Part shown: piece after piece, positions 25,340 through 34,863 of the stretch
How positions within the stretch are numbered: the first letter of the stretch is position 1
Layout: each line of letters opens with the position of its first letter
Assembly (NCBI RefSeq): GCF_022808955.1
Contig: NZ_JAKZEY010000013.1
Location: 1 to 39,785, forward strand
Direction: 5' to 3'
Length of the DNA: 39,785 nucleotides
From: Anaerococcus sp. AGMB09787
Lineage (GTDB): Bacteria > Bacillota > Clostridia > Tissierellales > Peptoniphilaceae
Notes under the pieces: model-generated
The model's database searches: none
Seen by the model: the letters and a program-made list of their open reading frames with translations, nothing else
What the model was told of the DNA's origin: nothing
Made by a program: the position numbers and the translations under genes

Positions 25340-27034
25340 TTATTCTATTGAATCAATTTCACCTTGCATGAAGGCATTAATTTCTTTAAGCTTCTTCTCT
25401 GATTTTTCCTTGCTATCATCTATGGCATTGATGTAGAGTTTGATCTTTGGTTCTGTACCTGATGGTCTTATAGCAAACCAAGAATCATCTTCTAGGTAGT
25501 ATTTCAAAACATTTGATTTTGGAAGTCCTGTGTCATCGTTTTGGTAGTCAATTATATTTTTAACCTTTAGGCCAACTACTTCTTCATAAGGATTTTCCCT
25601 GATTTGAGTCATAATTCTTGATATTCTTTCTTGACCGTCAAGTCCTTCTAAGACTATAGAGATTACTTCGTTTGAGTAGTAGCCATATTCTTCAAAGACT
25701 TCATTTATTACATCAAGGAGGGTCTTACCCTTTGCCTTGTAGTAGGCTGCCATCTCTGTTATCATCATAGCAGAGTTAACTGCATCCTTATCCCTTACAA
25801 AGTCCTTGTAGTTATAGCCGATTGACTCTTCAAAGCCAAAGATGAATTTACCAGACTTATTGGCATCAAGTTCATTGGCAACTGCATAGATATTTTTAAA
25901 GCCGGTGAGTACATCATAGACCTTAACACCGTATTTATTGGCAATTGGCTTAACTAGGTCTGTTGATACTAGGGACTTAACTACGGCTCCATCTTCTGGA
26001 AGTTCTCCATTTTCTTCTAAGGCTCCGAGGATATATTTTGTTAGTAAAGATCCGATTAGATTACCTGTCAAGAATACATATTCTCCATTCTCATCTCTTA
26101 CTTCTACAGCACACCTATCTGAATCAGGGTCTGTTGCTAGTAGTAGGTCTGCCCCTACTTCTTCGCCTAATTTTTCGCTGTATTTAAAGGCCTTAGGGTC
26201 TTCTGGGTTTGGATAGCCTACTGTTGTGAAGTCAGGATCAGGGTTTTCTTGTTCCTTAACTACATAAATATTTTTGAATCCTCTCTCATCTAAAATCCTT
26301 CTAACAAGCTTGTTACCTGCACCATTTAGAGGAGTATAGACAACCTTGATGTCCTTATCAATTCCCTCATCATTTATAGTACAGTCTAGGATTTCTTTTA
26401 TATAATCTTCTATTAGCTCATCGCTAACGTATTCGATAATTCCATCTTTTAGGCCTTCTTCAAATGGCAATCTCTCTATCTCAAAGAAATCTTCATGCTC
26501 TGCTATATGGCCTAGGATCTTATCTGCAGTTTCATCTAATATTTGGCTACCTTCGTTGTTGTAAGCCTTGTATCCATTGTATTCTCTAGGGTTGTGGCTT
26601 GCTGTAACCATAACGCCTGCTGCACAATTTAGCTTTCTAATAGTGTATGAACAAACTGGGGTAGGTTGAATTTCCTTGTGGATATAAACCTTGATTCCAT
26701 TTGCTGCAAAAACTTCTGCTGTAACTTTGGCAAATTCTTCTGACATATGTCTTACGTCATAGGCTATAGCCACACCACGTTTTTTGGCTTCTTCTCCCTC
26801 TTCTGCTATGGTATCTGCAAAACCTTGGGTAGCTTGAGCTACATTGTAGATGTTCATTCTATTTGTACCAGCACCGAGTTTACCCCTTAGTCCTGCTGTA
26901 CCAAACTTAAGTGATTGGTGGAACCTGTCTTTGATTTCCTCTTCATCATCCTTTATGCTTTGAAGGTCTTTCTTTGTTTCTTCATCAAATCTATCATCTT
27001 CTAACCATTTTTCAAATCTTTCTTTGTAGTCCAT
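25340..27034 (-). CDS. pgcA: Phosphoglucomutase
   Basis: An alpha-phosphohexomutase of 564 aa that interconverts glucose-1-phosphate and glucose-6-phosphate. The phosphoserine loop is TASHNPREYNGYK with Ser146. The metal loop is DPDSDRC, the sugar-binding loop GFEESIGY, and the C-terminal phosphate loop RPSGTEPKIKLY. All four conserved loops are intact. ATG follows ATAGGAG. It is the last gene of the glg operon, 2 bases after pulA, linking glycogen (via glucose-1-phosphate) to glycolysis. Phosphoglucomutase is more likely than phosphomannomutase because of this place. Confidence 0.93.
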   Translation of the reverse strand: MDYKERFEKWLEDDRFDEETKKDLQSIKDDEEEIKDRFHQSLKFGTAGLRGKLGAGTNRMNIYNVAQATQGFADTIAEEGEEAKKRGVAIAYDVRHMSEEFAKVTAEVFAANGIKVYIHKEIQPTPVCSYTIRKLNCAAGVMVTASHNPREYNGYKAYNNEGSQILDETADKILGHIAEHEDFFEIERLPFEEGLKDGIIEYVSDELIEDYIKEILDCTINDEGIDKDIKVVYTPLNGAGNKLVRRILDERGFKNIYVVKEQENPDPDFTTVGYPNPEDPKAFKYSEKLGEEVGADLLLATDPDSDRCAVEVRDENGEYVFLTGNLIGSLLTKYILGALEENGELPEDGAVVKSLVSTDLVKPIANKYGVKVYDVLTGFKNIYAVANELDANKSGKFIFGFEESIGYNYKDFVRDKDAVNSAMMITEMAAYYKAKGKTLLDVINEVFEEYGYYSNEVISIVLEGLDGQERISRIMTQIRENPYEEVVGLKVKNIIDYQNDDTGLPKSNVLKYYLEDDSWFAIRPSGTEPKIKLYINAIDDSKEKSEKKLKEINAFMQGEIDSIE

Positions 27035-27036
27035 AA

Positions 27037-28953
27037 TTAATCTCCTATTCTATAAACATTAACAGACTTATAATCTATTCTAAGACCCATACTTAGATCC
27101 ACTATTAATTGATTTATACCCTTTTTTGAGAAAACATTTGTAACTTTTAAATCATTGTTCTCAAGAAATTCTTCAAGCCTTTCCTTGTTGATAACCTGGT
27201 CTTTGGTATCTCCATTGATTACTACCAGGTAGTCTTCATCAAAGTTTTTAAGCTCATAGGCTATCAAGCAATCTCTAAGTCCCTCCATAAAGCTCAAAGA
27301 CTTCTTTATATCTTCAACCTTGGTAACTTTTAGGGTCTTAATCTTCTTTCTTAACTTGATAAGATCCTTGGTGTAGGTAAAAATACCAAGATTTTTTTCC
27401 TTTTCGTCCCATCTAATGGCGTTATTAGTTAAAGGCGAATTGTAGGAATTGGCATCGTTGTTCTTGGTATGGTTAAATTCATTACCCTCATAAATAAAAG
27501 GCTTACCAAAGGATAAGAAAATAATTCCCAGAGCCATCTTCACATAATCGTCTATATTTTCACTTTGATTAAGGGAAATTGCTAGCTTATCATAAAGAAT
27601 TAAATTATCATGGCAATTAAAATAATTAATTGTCTCGCTGGCATCATCTACAAAGCCAGACCTTCTTTTATCGTAGGCAATAGATCCTGCAATGCCCGTT
27701 TCTAGATCATTCTTGTAAGAATATATCCCTTGGATATAGCCCTTGCCATAGCCATTCACATCTCCCTTGATGCTATCCCTGAAGTCATCATTGAAGACCC
27801 CAAAGCCAGATGACCTCTGACTCCCCTTTAAGATTTGCTTTTCATAAGGAAGGGGTGAAGTGAAGGCCATCCAAGGCTCACCATATATGATAAGGTTAGG
27901 ATTTATTTGTTTTAGTTTTTTAAGAGCAATTTTTATCGTATCTATATCTATTAAGGCCATTAGGTCAAACCTATAACCATCTATCTTATATTCCAAAACC
28001 CAGTAGGTTAGGGCATCAATAATTAGCTTTCTAACAAAGGCCCTCTCACTGCAAAGCTCATTTCCAACACCTGACCCATTGGAAAAGCTCCCATCATCAT
28101 TCATCCTGTGGTAATAATTAGGGGCCAGGGTGTTTAGATTTGAATCATAGGACTTAAAGGTATGGTTAAAGACCACATCCATCACTATAGATATCCCCTC
28201 TTCATGGAAGGACTTTACCATTTGCTTTAATTCCCTCATCCTTGCTTGGGGGTCGTAGGGGTTGGTACTATAGGACCCCTCTGGGCTAAAGTAAAGCTCT
28301 GGGTCATAGCCCCAATTATAGTTATCATCATCAAAAAATCTATCCCCATCCTCATCAACCGAAATAAAATCATAGATGGGCAGGAGCTGAACATGACTTA
28401 CTCCAAGCTCCTTTAGGTGGCTTAGCCCTGTAGTAAGATTCTTGTAACTAGTATTTTTTTCGCTAAGGCCTAGGAACTTCCCCCTATTTTTAACATTGCT
28501 GGTTGGATCTGCTGTATAATTTTTTACATTTAGCTCATAAATTATAGCATCTTCTTCTTTGTTATCCGGATAACTTGTATCTCTAAAACCCTCAGGGTCT
28601 GTTTTTTTGCGATCAATAACTACTGATGCCAGGGAATTTATAGAGGAGCTAAAGGAATAGGGATCGGTAACTTGGTTTTTATTATCTACCAGGTAGGTAT
28701 AAAAATATCCCTCATAGTCCCCATCAAGGCTTGCTTCATATATGCCAATATCATTTTTGCTCATAGGAATTCTTTCTTTCCTGGCCTTCCTATAGTCATC
28801 AGCAATTAATAGGTCAACTTCTCTTGCAAAGGGGGCAAAAACTCTAAAGGTCGTTTTATCTTTTGTATATAGGGCTCCTAATTTTTCGTCTTTGATATCT
28901 TCATAGTCTAAGTTAAATATTTTTTTCTCATAGTCACTTTGTCTAACTGTCAT
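27037..28953 (-). CDS. pulA: Type I pullulanase (intracellular debranching enzyme)
   Basis: A 638-aa GH13 enzyme that splits alpha-1,6 branches in glycogen or pullulan. An N-terminal CBM48 domain (about 30-115) precedes the barrel. The type I pullulanase signature YNWGYDP is at 212-218, catalytic Asp330 is in DGYRFD, Glu359 in IIYGEPW, and the third acid in NCHDN further on. It has no signal peptide, so it acts in the cytoplasm on stored glycogen. ATG follows AGAGG and touches the stop of the GlgP-like gene. Confidence 0.94.
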   Translation of the reverse strand: MTVRQSDYEKKIFNLDYEDIKDEKLGALYTKDKTTFRVFAPFAREVDLLIADDYRKARKERIPMSKNDIGIYEASLDGDYEGYFYTYLVDNKNQVTDPYSFSSSINSLASVVIDRKKTDPEGFRDTSYPDNKEEDAIIYELNVKNYTADPTSNVKNRGKFLGLSEKNTSYKNLTTGLSHLKELGVSHVQLLPIYDFISVDEDGDRFFDDDNYNWGYDPELYFSPEGSYSTNPYDPQARMRELKQMVKSFHEEGISIVMDVVFNHTFKSYDSNLNTLAPNYYHRMNDDGSFSNGSGVGNELCSERAFVRKLIIDALTYWVLEYKIDGYRFDLMALIDIDTIKIALKKLKQINPNLIIYGEPWMAFTSPLPYEKQILKGSQRSSGFGVFNDDFRDSIKGDVNGYGKGYIQGIYSYKNDLETGIAGSIAYDKRRSGFVDDASETINYFNCHDNLILYDKLAISLNQSENIDDYVKMALGIIFLSFGKPFIYEGNEFNHTKNNDANSYNSPLTNNAIRWDEKEKNLGIFTYTKDLIKLRKKIKTLKVTKVEDIKKSLSFMEGLRDCLIAYELKNFDEDYLVVINGDTKDQVINKERLEEFLENNDLKVTNVFSKKGINQLIVDLSMGLRIDYKSVNVYRIGD

Positions 28954-31194
28954 TTACCTCTTCCTTACAATTTTATCATCTAAGATGAAATTATTAGCCC
29001 ATAAGATATTATCAATTTCCCCCTTGACCCATTTTTCTTCGTCTAGGTAGTCCCTACCTACTTGATCCATTATATTAACAAGGTCTTCTAGGTCCTTAAA
29101 AATCCTAAATGAGTCGTTATACATCATTATTTGATCATACATGACCTTGAAATCGTAGGGGAAATTTGCATAGGGCTCTCTAATTAAATTTTCTATTGTA
29201 TATTTTACCATAGGAGATCCATAGTAAAAATCATTGGCCCTATAAAACTTATCATTTTTTATTTCATCTATGCTTTGACCTAGCTTGTAAATGGAATTTT
29301 TCTGGTCAATATTGTAAGTAATACCACCCCTGGTAGAAATTATATTTGACATATTTAGACAGGAATTTAATAAATGAAAGTCTTCATTATCAAGGCTCGC
29401 AAGGGTTAGGTTATTGTAGATATCACTTGCTTTAACAATTATTTTTGCCTTTTCCACATCCAGGTCTTCAACAAAGACTATCTTTATTTTCTCTCTTATA
29501 ATCTTATCCCTATCAATAAGGCGCTTTAGGGCTAGGATAAATTTGATGGTTTCCTTGGCCATAAAGTAGCCCTCGTTTGCCTTACCAGAAAAGACATAGG
29601 TAGTTGGCGTGTAGGTTAGGTTAGAGTTTTCCCTAAAGGTGAAAAACTTGTAGGCAATAGCAAGCCCCTTCAATATCTGCCTCTTACTCTCATGGATAAT
29701 AGAAAGGCCTACATCAAAGAGAGAATAAGGATTTATTTTTTCTTTTGTTAGGTAGATTAGGTCCTTTTTGTTGGTAAACTTCGCCTCTTCTAGCCTATCT
29801 CGGAAATATCTATCTTCCCTTAGCCTATCGATTTTTATTAATTCTTCTTTTTTGCTAGAGCCTATCCCAAACTCCTTAAAGACTTCCATAAGCTCGTAGT
29901 TGTTGGAATCCACATACTTAGTCCTATCAGTACCTAGTGAGGTAAAGGCTAGGGGCCTAGTTGATGTCTTCTCATCCTTTAAGACCTTGGATAGGTAGTA
30001 ATACTGGTCTGATAGGGCGAGATTTATATTTTTTAGATAGACAGTACCGTAAGAAATAATTTCAAATTTCTCTTCTTCCAAGTTAAGCTCTTCTTGGATA
30101 CTCACTATTGTTGATAGGATATCTTCGTTGACCCTTTTTACCATATCTACCGGATAGGTCTCGATGGTATCATCAGTTATGGAGAAGGCAATATGCTCAA
30201 AGACCTTGCGACACACCTTGATGGCATCATTTATGCTATAGCCATAGTCATCAAGTAAAATTCTTACAAATTCTACCAAAGCCAGGGTCGGATGGACGTC
30301 ATTTACTATAATCTTGATCCTATTTTCTATTCCATCTATTGAATCATACTTGTTGTTATATCTCTTAAAAATATCCCTTACTGCTGAGCTTGTATAGAAA
30401 TATTCTTGCTTTAGCCTTATTAATTTTCCATCATAGGAAGAATCGTCCAGGTACAAAAACTGATTGATACTGCTTGTAGCAATGTAGTCACCATAGGCCT
30501 TGAAGAAATCTCCTCTGGTAAAGTCTTCGTAGTCTACGGACTTACTTGGTTCTGCATCAAAAAGTCTAAGTGTTGCTACAAATTGAGCATCATCAGATAA
30601 GATTGGTATGTCATAGGCTGAAGATTTTATATCCCTCCCATCAATCTTTAAATCATAAGAAAATCCCTTCTTATGCTCCCAATTGTAGCCATTGGCAAGC
30701 CAGTACTCGCTGTATTCTACCTGCTTGCCATCTACAATTTTTTGCTTGAGATTGCCATTTTCATACCTTAAGGCATAGGCGACTGACCTGATTTTTTTGT
30801 TGGCAAGCTCCCCTATAATATAGCTTGACCCTATTCCTATATCTCCAACACCGATATTGGCTTGCTTTTCAAAGTCGACTAAGTCCTTAAGAGTATAACC
30901 GATCTTACTCATTAGGCTTCCCACAACTTCTTCTATGCCTAGCTTATAGATGTAGTCTGTAATAAATTTCCCTGGAAGGTACTCAAAACTTAGGATATAT
31001 ACTTCAAAGCCATCATAATTTGTCTTACAGTCGACCCATTTTTTCCCTATCTCTTCCATTAGTGCCCTACATAGGCAGTCATATATTTCATTTATTCTTG
31101 CGTATTTTATATCCTTAGCATAAAAAGAATACAAATAATCTTGTATTCTTTCTAATAACGCATCTTGGCTTATATTATTTGACTTTAATTTCAT
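28954..31194 (-). CDS. Glycogen phosphorylase homologue lacking the PLP lysine
   Basis: A 746-aa GT35 protein. Clear phosphorylase segments remain: YILSFEYLPGKF (66-77), LKQKIVDGKQVEY (149-161), VNDVHPTLALVEFVRIL (298-313), SLFDVGLSIIHESKRQ (491-506) and SGKANEGYFMAK (536-547). The active site is gone. The PLP-binding stretch GTGNMK aligns without gaps to DFHLLN, so the lysine is Asn610. The phosphate-site Lys-Arg pair of VKRLHEYK reads SI (498-499). The NHT glucose-site motif reads TDD. GNGGLGR reads GVGDIGIG. It cannot do phosphorolysis by the known mechanism, and is probably a glycogen- or partner-binding pseudoenzyme. The frame is complete, without stops. It overlaps glgA by 20 bases. Confidence 0.85.
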   Translation of the reverse strand: MKLKSNNISQDALLERIQDYLYSFYAKDIKYARINEIYDCLCRALMEEIGKKWVDCKTNYDGFEVYILSFEYLPGKFITDYIYKLGIEEVVGSLMSKIGYTLKDLVDFEKQANIGVGDIGIGSSYIIGELANKKIRSVAYALRYENGNLKQKIVDGKQVEYSEYWLANGYNWEHKKGFSYDLKIDGRDIKSSAYDIPILSDDAQFVATLRLFDAEPSKSVDYEDFTRGDFFKAYGDYIATSSINQFLYLDDSSYDGKLIRLKQEYFYTSSAVRDIFKRYNNKYDSIDGIENRIKIIVNDVHPTLALVEFVRILLDDYGYSINDAIKVCRKVFEHIAFSITDDTIETYPVDMVKRVNEDILSTIVSIQEELNLEEEKFEIISYGTVYLKNINLALSDQYYYLSKVLKDEKTSTRPLAFTSLGTDRTKYVDSNNYELMEVFKEFGIGSSKKEELIKIDRLREDRYFRDRLEEAKFTNKKDLIYLTKEKINPYSLFDVGLSIIHESKRQILKGLAIAYKFFTFRENSNLTYTPTTYVFSGKANEGYFMAKETIKFILALKRLIDRDKIIREKIKIVFVEDLDVEKAKIIVKASDIYNNLTLASLDNEDFHLLNSCLNMSNIISTRGGITYNIDQKNSIYKLGQSIDEIKNDKFYRANDFYYGSPMVKYTIENLIREPYANFPYDFKVMYDQIMMYNDSFRIFKDLEDLVNIMDQVGRDYLDEEKWVKGEIDNILWANNFILDDKIVRKR

Positions 31195-32611
31195 TATATA
31201 ATTCTAAATATTTTTCTCCGGACATTTCCCAGTCGTTCTTTTGGCTCATAGCATTTTTGATTAGATTATTAAAGCTTTCCCTATCGTTTCTATATAGGTC
31301 GATAGCATTCTTGATGCAAAATAATAGCTCGTGAGCATTTATATTAGCAAATGAGAATCCCGTTCCCTCTCCTGTATATTCATTGTAGGCTGTAACTGTA
31401 TCCTTAAGTCCTCCAGCTTCCCTTACTATTGGAAGGGATCCATACCTCATAGCTATCAGCTGACTAATACCACATGGTTCTGATATAGAAGGCATTAGGT
31501 AGAGGTCAGATGCCCCATAGATTAGATGGCTCTCATCTGAACTATAGTAAATCCTAGCTGCAAGCTTGTCAGGATACTTCCACTCGAAGTACTTAAACAT
31601 CTCCTCGTAAGTGTATTCTCCAGTACCCAATACAACGAATTGCACATCTTCTTGAAGTAATTCTTCTAGGATATACCTTACTAGGTCAAGTCCCTTCATC
31701 TCGGTAAGTCTAGAGCAAATTCCTATTAGAGGAACATCTTCCCTTTGAGGAAGTCCATATTTTTCTTGGAGGGCTAGTTTATTTTTTACCTTTTGGTCTA
31801 TGGAACCAATATCGAAGTTTTGAGTTAGAATTCCGTCTTTGGCTGGATCCCATATATCAAAATCTATACCATTTACTATGCCCTTGAGCTTACCTGCATA
31901 TTGCCTAATGATACCATCAAGGCCTTCTCCATAGAATGGATATTGGATCTCTCTGGCATAATTTTCTGATACAGTATTTACATAGGATGAGTGGATTATA
32001 CCACCCTTCATAAAGTTAATGGCATCATAGAATTTAAGGTCGTTTTCATTAAAATAATAACCTGAAAGACCAGCAAGTCTTAGGTAGTCAGAGTCGAATA
32101 CCCCTTGGTATTTTAGATTATGTATAGTAAACAAGGTTCTTATATCATCGTAATAATGATCACCCTTTCTAAAATCATTTACAAATACATTTACCATGGC
32201 TGTATGCCAATCATTAGAATGGATTATATCTGGCTTAAAATTAATATATTTCCCCAAAAGTGTTGCGGCTTTGGAGAAATAGATAAATCTTTCTGGATCA
32301 TCATCGAAACCATAGGTACCATCCCTACTGCCAAAATATTCAAGGTTATCTATAAAGTAAAACTTAACCCCATCCCATTCTAGTTCATAGACGCCAGCAT
32401 ATTGATGTTTCCAGTCTAAATCAACATAAAACTCTGTGATTTTTTCCATTTTTTGCCTATACTTATCGTCAATATCCTTATATAGTGGGATTGCTACCCT
32501 ACAGTCTACACCTTTTTTGACAAGTTCTTTAGGAAGGGCTCCAGCAACGTCGGCAAGCCCTCCTGTCTTTATAAATGGTACTGCTTCTCCACTAAGAAAA
32601 AGTACATTCAT
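31175..32611 (-). CDS. glgA: Glycogen synthase (ADP-glucose)
   Basis: A GT5 enzyme of 478 aa that adds glucose from ADP-glucose to the growing alpha-1,4 chain. The ADP-glucose-binding motif KTGGLADV is at the N-terminus, and the C-terminal domain has the catalytic region EPCGISQLIAMRYGSLPIV and GGLKDTV. All key motifs are intact, in contrast to the GlgP-like neighbour. ATG follows AAAGGAA. It follows glgD by 1 base and overlaps the GlgP-like gene by 20 bases. Confidence 0.96.
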   Translation of the reverse strand: MNVLFLSGEAVPFIKTGGLADVAGALPKELVKKGVDCRVAIPLYKDIDDKYRQKMEKITEFYVDLDWKHQYAGVYELEWDGVKFYFIDNLEYFGSRDGTYGFDDDPERFIYFSKAATLLGKYINFKPDIIHSNDWHTAMVNVFVNDFRKGDHYYDDIRTLFTIHNLKYQGVFDSDYLRLAGLSGYYFNENDLKFYDAINFMKGGIIHSSYVNTVSENYAREIQYPFYGEGLDGIIRQYAGKLKGIVNGIDFDIWDPAKDGILTQNFDIGSIDQKVKNKLALQEKYGLPQREDVPLIGICSRLTEMKGLDLVRYILEELLQEDVQFVVLGTGEYTYEEMFKYFEWKYPDKLAARIYYSSDESHLIYGASDLYLMPSISEPCGISQLIAMRYGSLPIVREAGGLKDTVTAYNEYTGEGTGFSFANINAHELLFCIKNAIDLYRNDRESFNNLIKNAMSQKNDWEMSGEKYLELYNEIKVK

Positions 32612-32612
32612 C

Positions 32613-33728
32613 TTAATTTCCTTTCTCTAAAACTTCATTTTTATTTGTAACAAATGGATGAGACCTATTACCAAATAACCTAGTGTCCTTGCTAATCTTA
32701 GTTCTCTTATCAGTTATAACAAAGTTCAAAATTGCGCCATCACCTATATCAGTATCTTGGAAAATAACTGAATTCTTGACTACAGCACCCTTACCTATAG
32801 TAACTCCCCTAAAGATAATTGAGTTTTCAACTTGTCCCTTAATAATAGCACCATTGGCTATGAGAGAATTTCTAACTTGAGATTCCTTGGTGTAGGAGGT
32901 TGAAGGTTCGTCCTTTGACTTGGTATATACTAGGCCGTCTTGGTAGAATAGTTCATTGAATACTTCCCTATCCAATAGTCTCAAATTAGCATCAAAGAAT
33001 GAGTTGGTATCAGATATTATTTCAAATCCCTTATCTTCCCTATAGAAATCTATATTCAAATCTCCACCCAAGGTAAAGATAGCATTTAGGAGGCTCATCT
33101 TGGAGTCTCTTTCCATAGCAAGCCTTAGTACCCTAAGGAAGACTTCAGTCTTAATCATAAATGATCCTAGGAAAAGATCTATCTCATCAGATATACCGAG
33201 GTTGATACCCACACTTTGTGGCTTGCCATTTTCATCAGATGATATAATCTTTCTATTTAAATAATTACCATCTTCATCTACAGTCTTGGTAGAGAAAATC
33301 AAGCAATCTAGGTCTTCATCCTTCATTTTTTCATAGGCATCTGTGATATCTTCCTTGTTGATATACATTGGATTCTTGATATAAACATATTCACTATTAT
33401 GGTCTTCAAAATATCTTATAGTATCATAGTAAGTTTCGATTTCACTGTACTTGCTTGTTCCAGATGAGTTAATCAAAAGTCCACCATTTCTCCTATTAAG
33501 TTCCCATGATTTACCATTACCTATATGGTCGATTGTGGATCTTAACATCCTATCAGAACACAAAATTACTCTAGATATATCATGGTTAGTTAAATTAGAT
33601 AAGGCAAAGTCGATTATCCTGTATCTTCCACCAAATGGAAGCATATAATCAGGTCGTAACTTACATAACTCGCCATAATTGCTTTCGTTAAACTCACTAC
33701 TATATATTAATGCTACAATATTTGGCAT
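32613..33728 (-). CDS. glgD: GlgD, ADP-glucose pyrophosphorylase regulatory subunit
   Basis: A 371-aa partner of GlgC. In Bacilli the GlgC-GlgD pair makes ADP-glucose more actively than GlgC alone. The nucleotidyltransferase fold is kept ([14 protein letters not shown] near 36), but the GlgC signature GDHIYKMDY is replaced by IKNPMYINKED, as expected for a subunit with little or no catalysis. The C-terminus has left-handed beta-helix repeats (GAIIKGQ, GVTIGKGAVV). Start ATG 33728 follows GAGGAGG; an in-frame TTG five codons earlier lies in glgC. It begins 1 base after the glgC stop. Confidence 0.93.
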   Translation of the reverse strand: MPNIVALIYSSEFNESNYGELCKLRPDYMLPFGGRYRIIDFALSNLTNHDISRVILCSDRMLRSTIDHIGNGKSWELNRRNGGLLINSSGTSKYSEIETYYDTIRYFEDHNSEYVYIKNPMYINKEDITDAYEKMKDEDLDCLIFSTKTVDEDGNYLNRKIISSDENGKPQSVGINLGISDEIDLFLGSFMIKTEVFLRVLRLAMERDSKMSLLNAIFTLGGDLNIDFYREDKGFEIISDTNSFFDANLRLLDREVFNELFYQDGLVYTKSKDEPSTSYTKESQVRNSLIANGAIIKGQVENSIIFRGVTIGKGAVVKNSVIFQDTDIGDGAILNFVITDKRTKISKDTRLFGNRSHPFVTNKNEVLEKGN

Positions 33729-33729
33729 C

Positions 33730-34863
33730 CTATTCCTCCTCAATACCCTCTTGACTCACAAGGTAAACGTTGCTATCATTTTCGCTTCCAATATTCTCAC
33801 TAATCTCCATATCAGAAGCTACAACTGAATTATAAACCTTAACCCCACTCTTAACCTTAACATTATTTAGTAGGACACTGTTATAGACTTCTGCTCCCTC
33901 TTCAATTTCAACTGATGAGAAGAGGACAGAATTCTCAGCCTTGCCATCTATAACACAGTCTTCATTTACTAGGCACTCAGACAACTCTCCATTGTTACCA
34001 ATCCTATGAGGAGGTAAATTTAAAGATTTAGTATAAATTCTCCAGTCATCATTGTAAATATCTAGCTCATTTTCAGGATCTATCAAATCAAGATTTGCTT
34101 GCCAATAACTTCTTACTGTTCCAACATCCTTCCAATATCCATCAAACTTATAAACATATAGGTTAAGACCTTCATTGAGCATCTTTGGAATTATATCCTT
34201 ACCAAAGTCGTTAGAAGAATTAGGGTCCTTGCTATCTTCAACCAATTCTTTTCTAAGAACTTGCCAGTTAAAGATATAAATTCCCATAGAAGCTAGGTTA
34301 GACTTAGGATTTGCTGGTTTTTCCTCAAACTCTACAATCCTATCATCTTCATCTGTATTCATAATACCAAACCTAGAAGCCTCATCCCAATCTACTTCCA
34401 TAACTGCTATGGTACAATCAGCCCCCTTTTCCTTATGAACATCTAGAAGCTTCCTATAGTCCATCTTGTAAATATGGTCTCCTGATAAGATTAAAATATA
34501 CTCAGGATTTACTTGGTCTAAATAATTAATATTCTCAAAAATAGCAGAAGCAGTTCCTTCAAACCACCTACCACCTTCTTCAGTATAATATGGGGACAAA
34601 ATTCTAAGGCCACCAAAATTCCTGTCATAATCCCAAGGTGCTCCAATGCCCAAATGCTCGTTTAATAATTGAGGCTTGTATTGGGTCAAGACTCCAATAT
34701 CCTTAACATCAGAATTGGTCGCATTTGATAAGGCAAAATCAATTATCTTATACTTGCCACCAAAAGGTACAACAGGCTTAGCCATATTCCTAGTCAACGC
34801 TTTGAGCCTAGAACCTTGTCCACCAGCCAAAAGCATCGCTGCTATCTTGTTTGAATTTCTCAT
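33730..34863 (-). CDS. glgC: Glucose-1-phosphate adenylyltransferase
   Basis: A 377-aa enzyme that makes ADP-glucose from glucose-1-phosphate and ATP, the committed step of glycogen synthesis. [11 protein letters not shown] is the nucleotide-binding loop, [14 protein letters not shown] follows, and GDHIYKMDY holds the catalytic Asp. The C-terminal beta-helix is present. It heads the operon glgC-glgD-glgA-glgP-like-pulA-pgm; ATG follows AAGGAGGAG. The 120 bases before it must hold the promoter, but no convincing hexamer pair, cre or other operator was seen. Confidence 0.96.

Follow-up and report, generated by a model that had tools for sequence, protein, structure and literature searches.

Plants possess several paralogues of starch enzymes, ISA2, BAM4, BAM9, and SS5, that are inactive and have binding or regulatory roles. 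These are plant, not bacterial, proteins and, to our knowledge, none of them is a phosphorylase. In the glycogen operons of Firmicutes, a comparable case is GlgD, an inactive ADP-glucose pyrophosphorylase subunit which is reported to lack activity and to modulate GlgC in other Firmicutes (PMC9093745). The phosphorylases themselves, that is, the GT35 alpha-glucan phosphorylases (GlgP/MalP; TIGR02093, PF00343), are dimers in almost all studied cases, and heterodimers between isozymes are possible; two phosphorylase paralogues of one cell, potato Pho1a and Pho1b, are reported to heterodimerise (PMC12267944). Both plant subunits are described as isozymes, whereas in the locus described here one of the two subunits looks dead. 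Among the matches listed in the open-licence literature (titles and abstract starts), we found no description of a dead or duplicated bacterial glycogen phosphorylase, nor of one from Anaerococcus.

The DNA analysed is a stretch of 39,785 nucleotides from Anaerococcus sp. AGMB09787 (contig NZ_JAKZEY010000013.1), hereafter called the window, which carries a glycogen operon on its reverse strand. The operon contains glgC (33730..34863), encoding the catalytic ADP-glucose pyrophosphorylase subunit; glgD (32613..33743), encoding the inactive-type partner of GlgC; the glycogen synthase gene glgA (31175..32611); an eroded homologue of glgP (28954..31194), the GT35 pseudoenzyme candidate considered here; pulA (27037..28953), a debranching enzyme with CBM48 and alpha-amylase domains; and, at the operon end, a pgm-like phosphohexomutase gene (25340..27034). 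GlgD of the window aligns with GlgC but lacks the stretch LAGGQGSRL of the latter; judged by its sequence, the operon already encodes one inactive-type subunit. The initial annotation had placed an intact reading frame between glgA and pulA, and the coordinates of the open reading frame (ORF) agree, with 746 codons for amino acids that are uninterrupted. The resemblance to GlgD lies in an apparently dead paralogue being kept in the same operon beside active enzymes; GlgD belongs to another enzyme family and has an established partner, GlgC, whereas GlgA, PulA, and canonical GlgP are candidate partners of the eroded GlgP.

In the window, glgA and the eroded gene share 20 nt, and the ATG of pulA comes immediately after the stop codon of the eroded gene (gap of 0 nt). 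The distance to pulA is at most 25 nt in 22 of the 26 other loci measured, the first start codon of each ORF being used. Such tight coupling might suggest that the gene serves only to set the ribosome supply of pulA, the protein itself being of little matter. We consider this highly improbable, because purifying selection acts at the amino-acid level (see below) and because pulA follows glgA directly, the gene being absent, in nine loci.

Membership of the encoded protein in GT35, as first annotated, is well supported. PF00343 matches it with 356.6 bits (E = 3.5e-106; family cut-off 27), and in HMMER comparisons with solved phosphorylases, residues 7–367 and 465–736 align, the intervening stretch being unaligned, so that the protein is homologous to these enzymes over most of its length. 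It does not reach the curated cut-off of TIGR02093 (NCBIfam; 369.7 vs. 552.9 bits). Motifs were called from a MAFFT alignment guided by the canonical GlgP of the same genome. In this alignment, Asn610 (codon at 29365..29367, reverse strand, as for the following motifs) stands at the position of the invariant pyridoxal phosphate (PLP) lysine, Ser498-Ile499 (29698..29703) at the phosphate-site Lys-Arg pair, AFS (residues 336–338; 30181..30189) at the glucose-site NHT motif, GVGDIGI (residues 115–121; 30832..30852) at the GNGGLGR loop, and SLGTDRTKY in place of TNGITPRRW. The replacement of the lysine had been proposed from an ungapped comparison, along with the loss of the first three of these other motifs, and all were reproduced here. 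We further scored 31 active-site positions, with roles as in rabbit phosphorylase: the window protein retains 9 of these residues and canonical copies 27–31. It thus has neither the PLP lysine of an active alpha-glucan phosphorylase nor the corresponding phosphate and glucose sites.

An ordinary, weak phosphorylase in which PLP is kept in place by a different lysine, or with none at the usual position, would fit the GT35 homology over most of the length, as well as the persistence of the lysine in 11 of the 56 eroded copies. It is nevertheless very unlikely: along with its lysine, the window protein has lost NGITPRRW, NHT, and the sites for the cofactor phosphate and the substrate phosphate, and we found no lysine within residues 589–631, nor any genus-conserved lysine in that segment. 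The missing lysine alone is no proof of inactivity, because the archaeal phosphorylase MmGP is reported to be PLP-independent (PMC12267944). The joint loss of phosphate and glucose sites is the stronger argument, and the window protein, probably devoid of phosphorylase activity, should not be filed as a glycogen phosphorylase. An annotation relying only on PF00343 would give these anaerobes two glycogen phosphorylases, one of them dead-looking.

The suggestion that glycogen breakdown would follow another route had been made for the case of a genome with no other GlgP, which is not the case here. A second, canonical GlgP of 802 amino acids, with GKEASGTGNMKF intact, is encoded on another contig of the same genome, where it adjoins malQ, and glycogen breakdown therefore need not take another route. 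Of the 59 genomes that carry an eroded copy, 57 have a high-scoring PF00343 match at another place, the two others (G026 and G058, in which only the eroded copy was found) being 86% and 91% complete, respectively, and some of the genomes surveyed being metagenome-assembled (MAGs) or incomplete. Within the family to which Anaerococcus belongs (f1; Peptoniphilaceae, order Tissierellales), such a match elsewhere was found in 70 of the 72 phosphorylase-bearing genomes (split over pieces in G014 and G076), the canonical active site having been checked in the canonical copies among the 39 scored.

A phosphorylase match was found in 72 of 130 genomes of this family, and 52 of these 72 have an eroded copy downstream of glgA; they comprise every one of the 31 Anaerococcus genomes, plus 21 from other genera. 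Thirteen named relatives were found, all of them Anaerococcus, with identities of 95% for one MAG and 64% for A. tetradius. In a second family of the same order (f18), seven genomes have an eroded copy in this slot together with a match of more than 1000 bits elsewhere. The gene order glgC-glgD-glgA-P-pulA, where P is the eroded copy, is that of the window, and 55 of the 58 fetched loci with such a copy share it; the remaining three (G026, G222, and G023) are truncated by the end of the stretch or contig before the order is complete. In G222 (locus L110), glgA is separated from the eroded copy by 546 nt, most other loci being tightly spaced.

The reading frame is largely preserved. It spans at least 697 amino acids in 56 of the 59 genomes, although identity to the window protein falls as low as about 30%, and at least 701 in 30 of the 31 Anaerococcus copies. 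Among the 56, G036 has a 701-residue ORF without the first residues, which sit in a separate ORF of 80 amino acids. The copies of G037, G068, and G095 are broken into two or more frames, and in G037 pulA is also split. These three were classed as eroded from their pieces, which in G037 and G068 are much closer to the window protein than to canonical GlgP and in G095 have lost several motifs while keeping the lysine. In 20 genomes of the family, the canonical copy is the only one, and we examined the glgA locus of 12 of these. In nine of them (L142–L146, L148, and L151–L153), glgA is directly followed by pulA with no phosphorylase in the slot; in the three others, a weaker pulA match adjoins (G071), an ORF of 349 amino acids intervenes (G073), or no pulA follows glgA (G060). 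Because glgA runs into pulA in these nine loci, the role of the gene is dispensable in some relatives. A further arrangement was observed in two genera (L134–L141, from genomes G044–G047 and G049–G052), in which glgA lies outside a glgCDA operon and the genome has no PF00343 match.

Outside the order, a canonical GlgP occupies the same operon slot in four genomes of families f49 and f63 (L116–L119) and keeps 30 of the 31 residues. In a class-level search (query A1), 255 of 391 genomes matched, and the 16 proteins scored from 15 fetched places were all canonical (27–31 of 31). In a phylum-level search with the window protein, 35 of 398 matched at E ≤ 1e-70, and the eight proteins scored, from eight fetched places, were again canonical (26–29 of 31, the score of 26 including two gaps due to a late ORF start). 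No eroded copy was seen outside the order among the proteins scored from the matches listed; some may have been missed, since these queries give a strongly eroded copy a lower score than a canonical one.

Erosion is graded among the copies. Scoring was performed on the 95 proteins with an ORF longer than 650 amino acids, 39 of them canonical and 56 in the operon slot: the former keep 27–31 of the 31 active-site residues and the latter, all with an ORF of at least 697 amino acids, 6–22, with the PLP lysine present in 11. The 30 scored Anaerococcus copies all lack this lysine, which is replaced by Asn in 28, Ala in one, and His in one (the broken copy of G037 was left unscored). Its loss is hence due neither to chance nor to assembly error, and it appears ancestral in the genus, a point that had been raised with the original observation. 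Strong erosion is also seen in f18, where the operon GlgPs (L107–L113) have Thr or Ile at the lysine position. At the other extreme, three intermediates from genera g20 and g29 (L050, L051, and L052) retain 20–22 residues and the PLP lysine, their GTGNM loop being replaced; from their residues, phosphorylase function may persist in these copies. The gradation from 22 to 6 of 31 residues in a single syntenic slot allows the stages between enzyme and pseudoenzyme to be followed one after another, and turns non-catalytic action of GT35 proteins into a question that can be tested directly.

In a phylogenetic tree computed after removal of the 31 columns, a branch with support 98 separates the 56 eroded copies from all others, and one with support 100 does so for the 49 eroded copies of f1, the long branches making a single origin less certain than these support values suggest. 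The 39 canonical copies were also on one side in a first FastTree analysis that included the 31 columns. The fewest changes on the tree are one for the intact or eroded state and seven for the lysine. These relationships support a scenario in which erosion started once in the operon copy, the lysine probably being lost several times later.

Another possibility is that a redundant operon copy is slowly on its way out, with no present function. The dN/dS ratio of the eroded gene (NG86) is 0.055–0.11 in 11 of 12 Anaerococcus pairs, the 12th pair having given no value and some pairs having a genome in common. The NG86 values of its neighbour pulA are similar (0.05–0.10); those of glgA and glgC are 0.02–0.06 and 0.02–0.07, respectively. 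The ratio is not near 1, the value for relaxed selection in a decaying pseudogene, and such low values indicate a selected protein and not a dying gene; together with the residue scoring, they describe a selected protein with lost catalytic residues, as expected of a pseudoenzyme. Canonical copies were fetched for 24 of the 31 Anaerococcus genomes, and the paired comparison with the eroded copy was made for 23 of these, G037 being dropped because its eroded copy is broken. Mean pairwise identity is 0.546 for the eroded protein vs. 0.797 for the canonical one, and the eroded copy evolves 2.2 times as fast. This faster evolution, the broken copies of G037, G068, and G095, the split N-terminus of G036, and the nine loci without a phosphorylase between glgA and pulA are what one would expect of a gene being lost. 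We still consider such a fate unlikely, given the dN/dS values, the persistence of long ORFs in 56 of 59 genomes at identities down to about 30%, and the presence of newly invariant residues in the N-terminal segment, described hereafter.

The acceleration is uneven along the protein. The ratio of eroded to canonical differences is 1.48 in residues 1–75 (30970..31194, reverse strand) vs. 2.36 elsewhere, the 95% confidence interval of the difference being −1.28 to −0.40 (23 pairs). By region, it is highest at 76–125 and 601–625, where lost loops are located, and lowest at 1–75, 551–575, and 651–725, the interval for 551–575 crossing zero and those for 101–125 and 601–625 being very wide. Invariant sites give a similar picture. 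In nine matched genomes from five genera, picked because both copies were at hand, 89 sites are invariant in the eroded vs. 299 in the canonical copies: 13 vs. 14 in residues 1–75, 22 vs. 56 in 76–200, 16 vs. 52 in 201–300, 6 vs. 36 in 301–400, 4 vs. 34 in 401–500, 22 vs. 52 in 501–600, and 6 vs. 55 in 601–746. Residues 1–75 are also enriched in sites that have become invariant only in the eroded copies (9 of 75 vs. 29 of 671; P = 0.0095, uncorrected for the eight regions tried). Constraint is thus mostly gone from the catalytic half and kept on residues 1–75, a segment that we take to be the dimer-contact region of known phosphorylases (the cap and the helix meeting the second subunit).

We expected active-site residues to be eroded beyond the rest, and this was not found: with 23 canonical copies as a reference, the kept fraction is 0.32 for active-site vs. 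0.34 for other canonical-invariant residues (P = 0.39), and a test on 144 columns was likewise null (Fisher P = 0.37). Because catalytic residues are lost no more than other once-invariant ones, there is no sign that catalysis was specially removed; the extra constraint on them is gone. These figures bear on a further explanation, namely that the protein is an enzyme of changed chemistry, whose GT-B cleft would still process glucans or sugar phosphates PLP-free; it might be a glucosyltransferase, for instance, or a phosphorylase that needs no PLP. Asp299, His301, His501, Glu502, Arg505, and Lys538, polar residues that would lie in the cleft, are invariant across the nine eroded copies, deeply diverged as these are, and the canonical copies of the same genomes, and all 30 Anaerococcus copies have Lys504. 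The PLP-independence reported for MmGP (PMC12267944) gives a precedent. A new chemistry is nonetheless improbable, given that the active-site set is kept no better than other canonical-invariant sites, that the genus is variable at most residues of the glucose and phosphate sites, and that few sites are invariant in the catalytic half (10 vs. 70 in residues 301–500 and 6 vs. 55 in 601–746).

The reading that we prefer, and to which we give about an even chance, is that the gene encodes a pseudoenzyme of phosphorylase fold, which would owe its retention to a non-catalytic role as a partner protein, forming dimers and binding either glucan or an enzyme of the pathway. We propose it because the N-terminal segment is retained, phosphorylases dimerise, and the operon already has an inactive GlgD. 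In this scenario, the operon GlgP would no longer have been needed for phosphorolysis once the second GlgP, encoded beside malQ in this genome, took over, and the operon copy would then have been retained as a partner protein, dimerising most likely still via its N-terminal surface. It might act by binding glucan and its operon neighbours GlgA or PulA; alternatively, it might form the dead half of a heterodimer with the canonical GlgP, in the way GlgD modulates GlgC. The evolutionary rate of the eroded copy correlates to a similar degree with those of all three candidates (glgA, 0.38; pulA, 0.39; glgP, 0.36; 22 genomes).

More tentatively, and with some doubt, the eroded copies may constitute a class of GT35 regulatory subunits, old, widely kept, and non-catalytic, which would pair with GlgP or with GlgA/PulA and tune glycogen turnover. 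If this is true, the operon encodes two pseudoenzyme subunits, GlgD for synthesis and the eroded GlgP for synthesis or breakdown. As to what set off the erosion, loss of the branching enzyme was considered and ruled out as a cause, GlgB scoring over the cut-off in all 31 Anaerococcus genomes.
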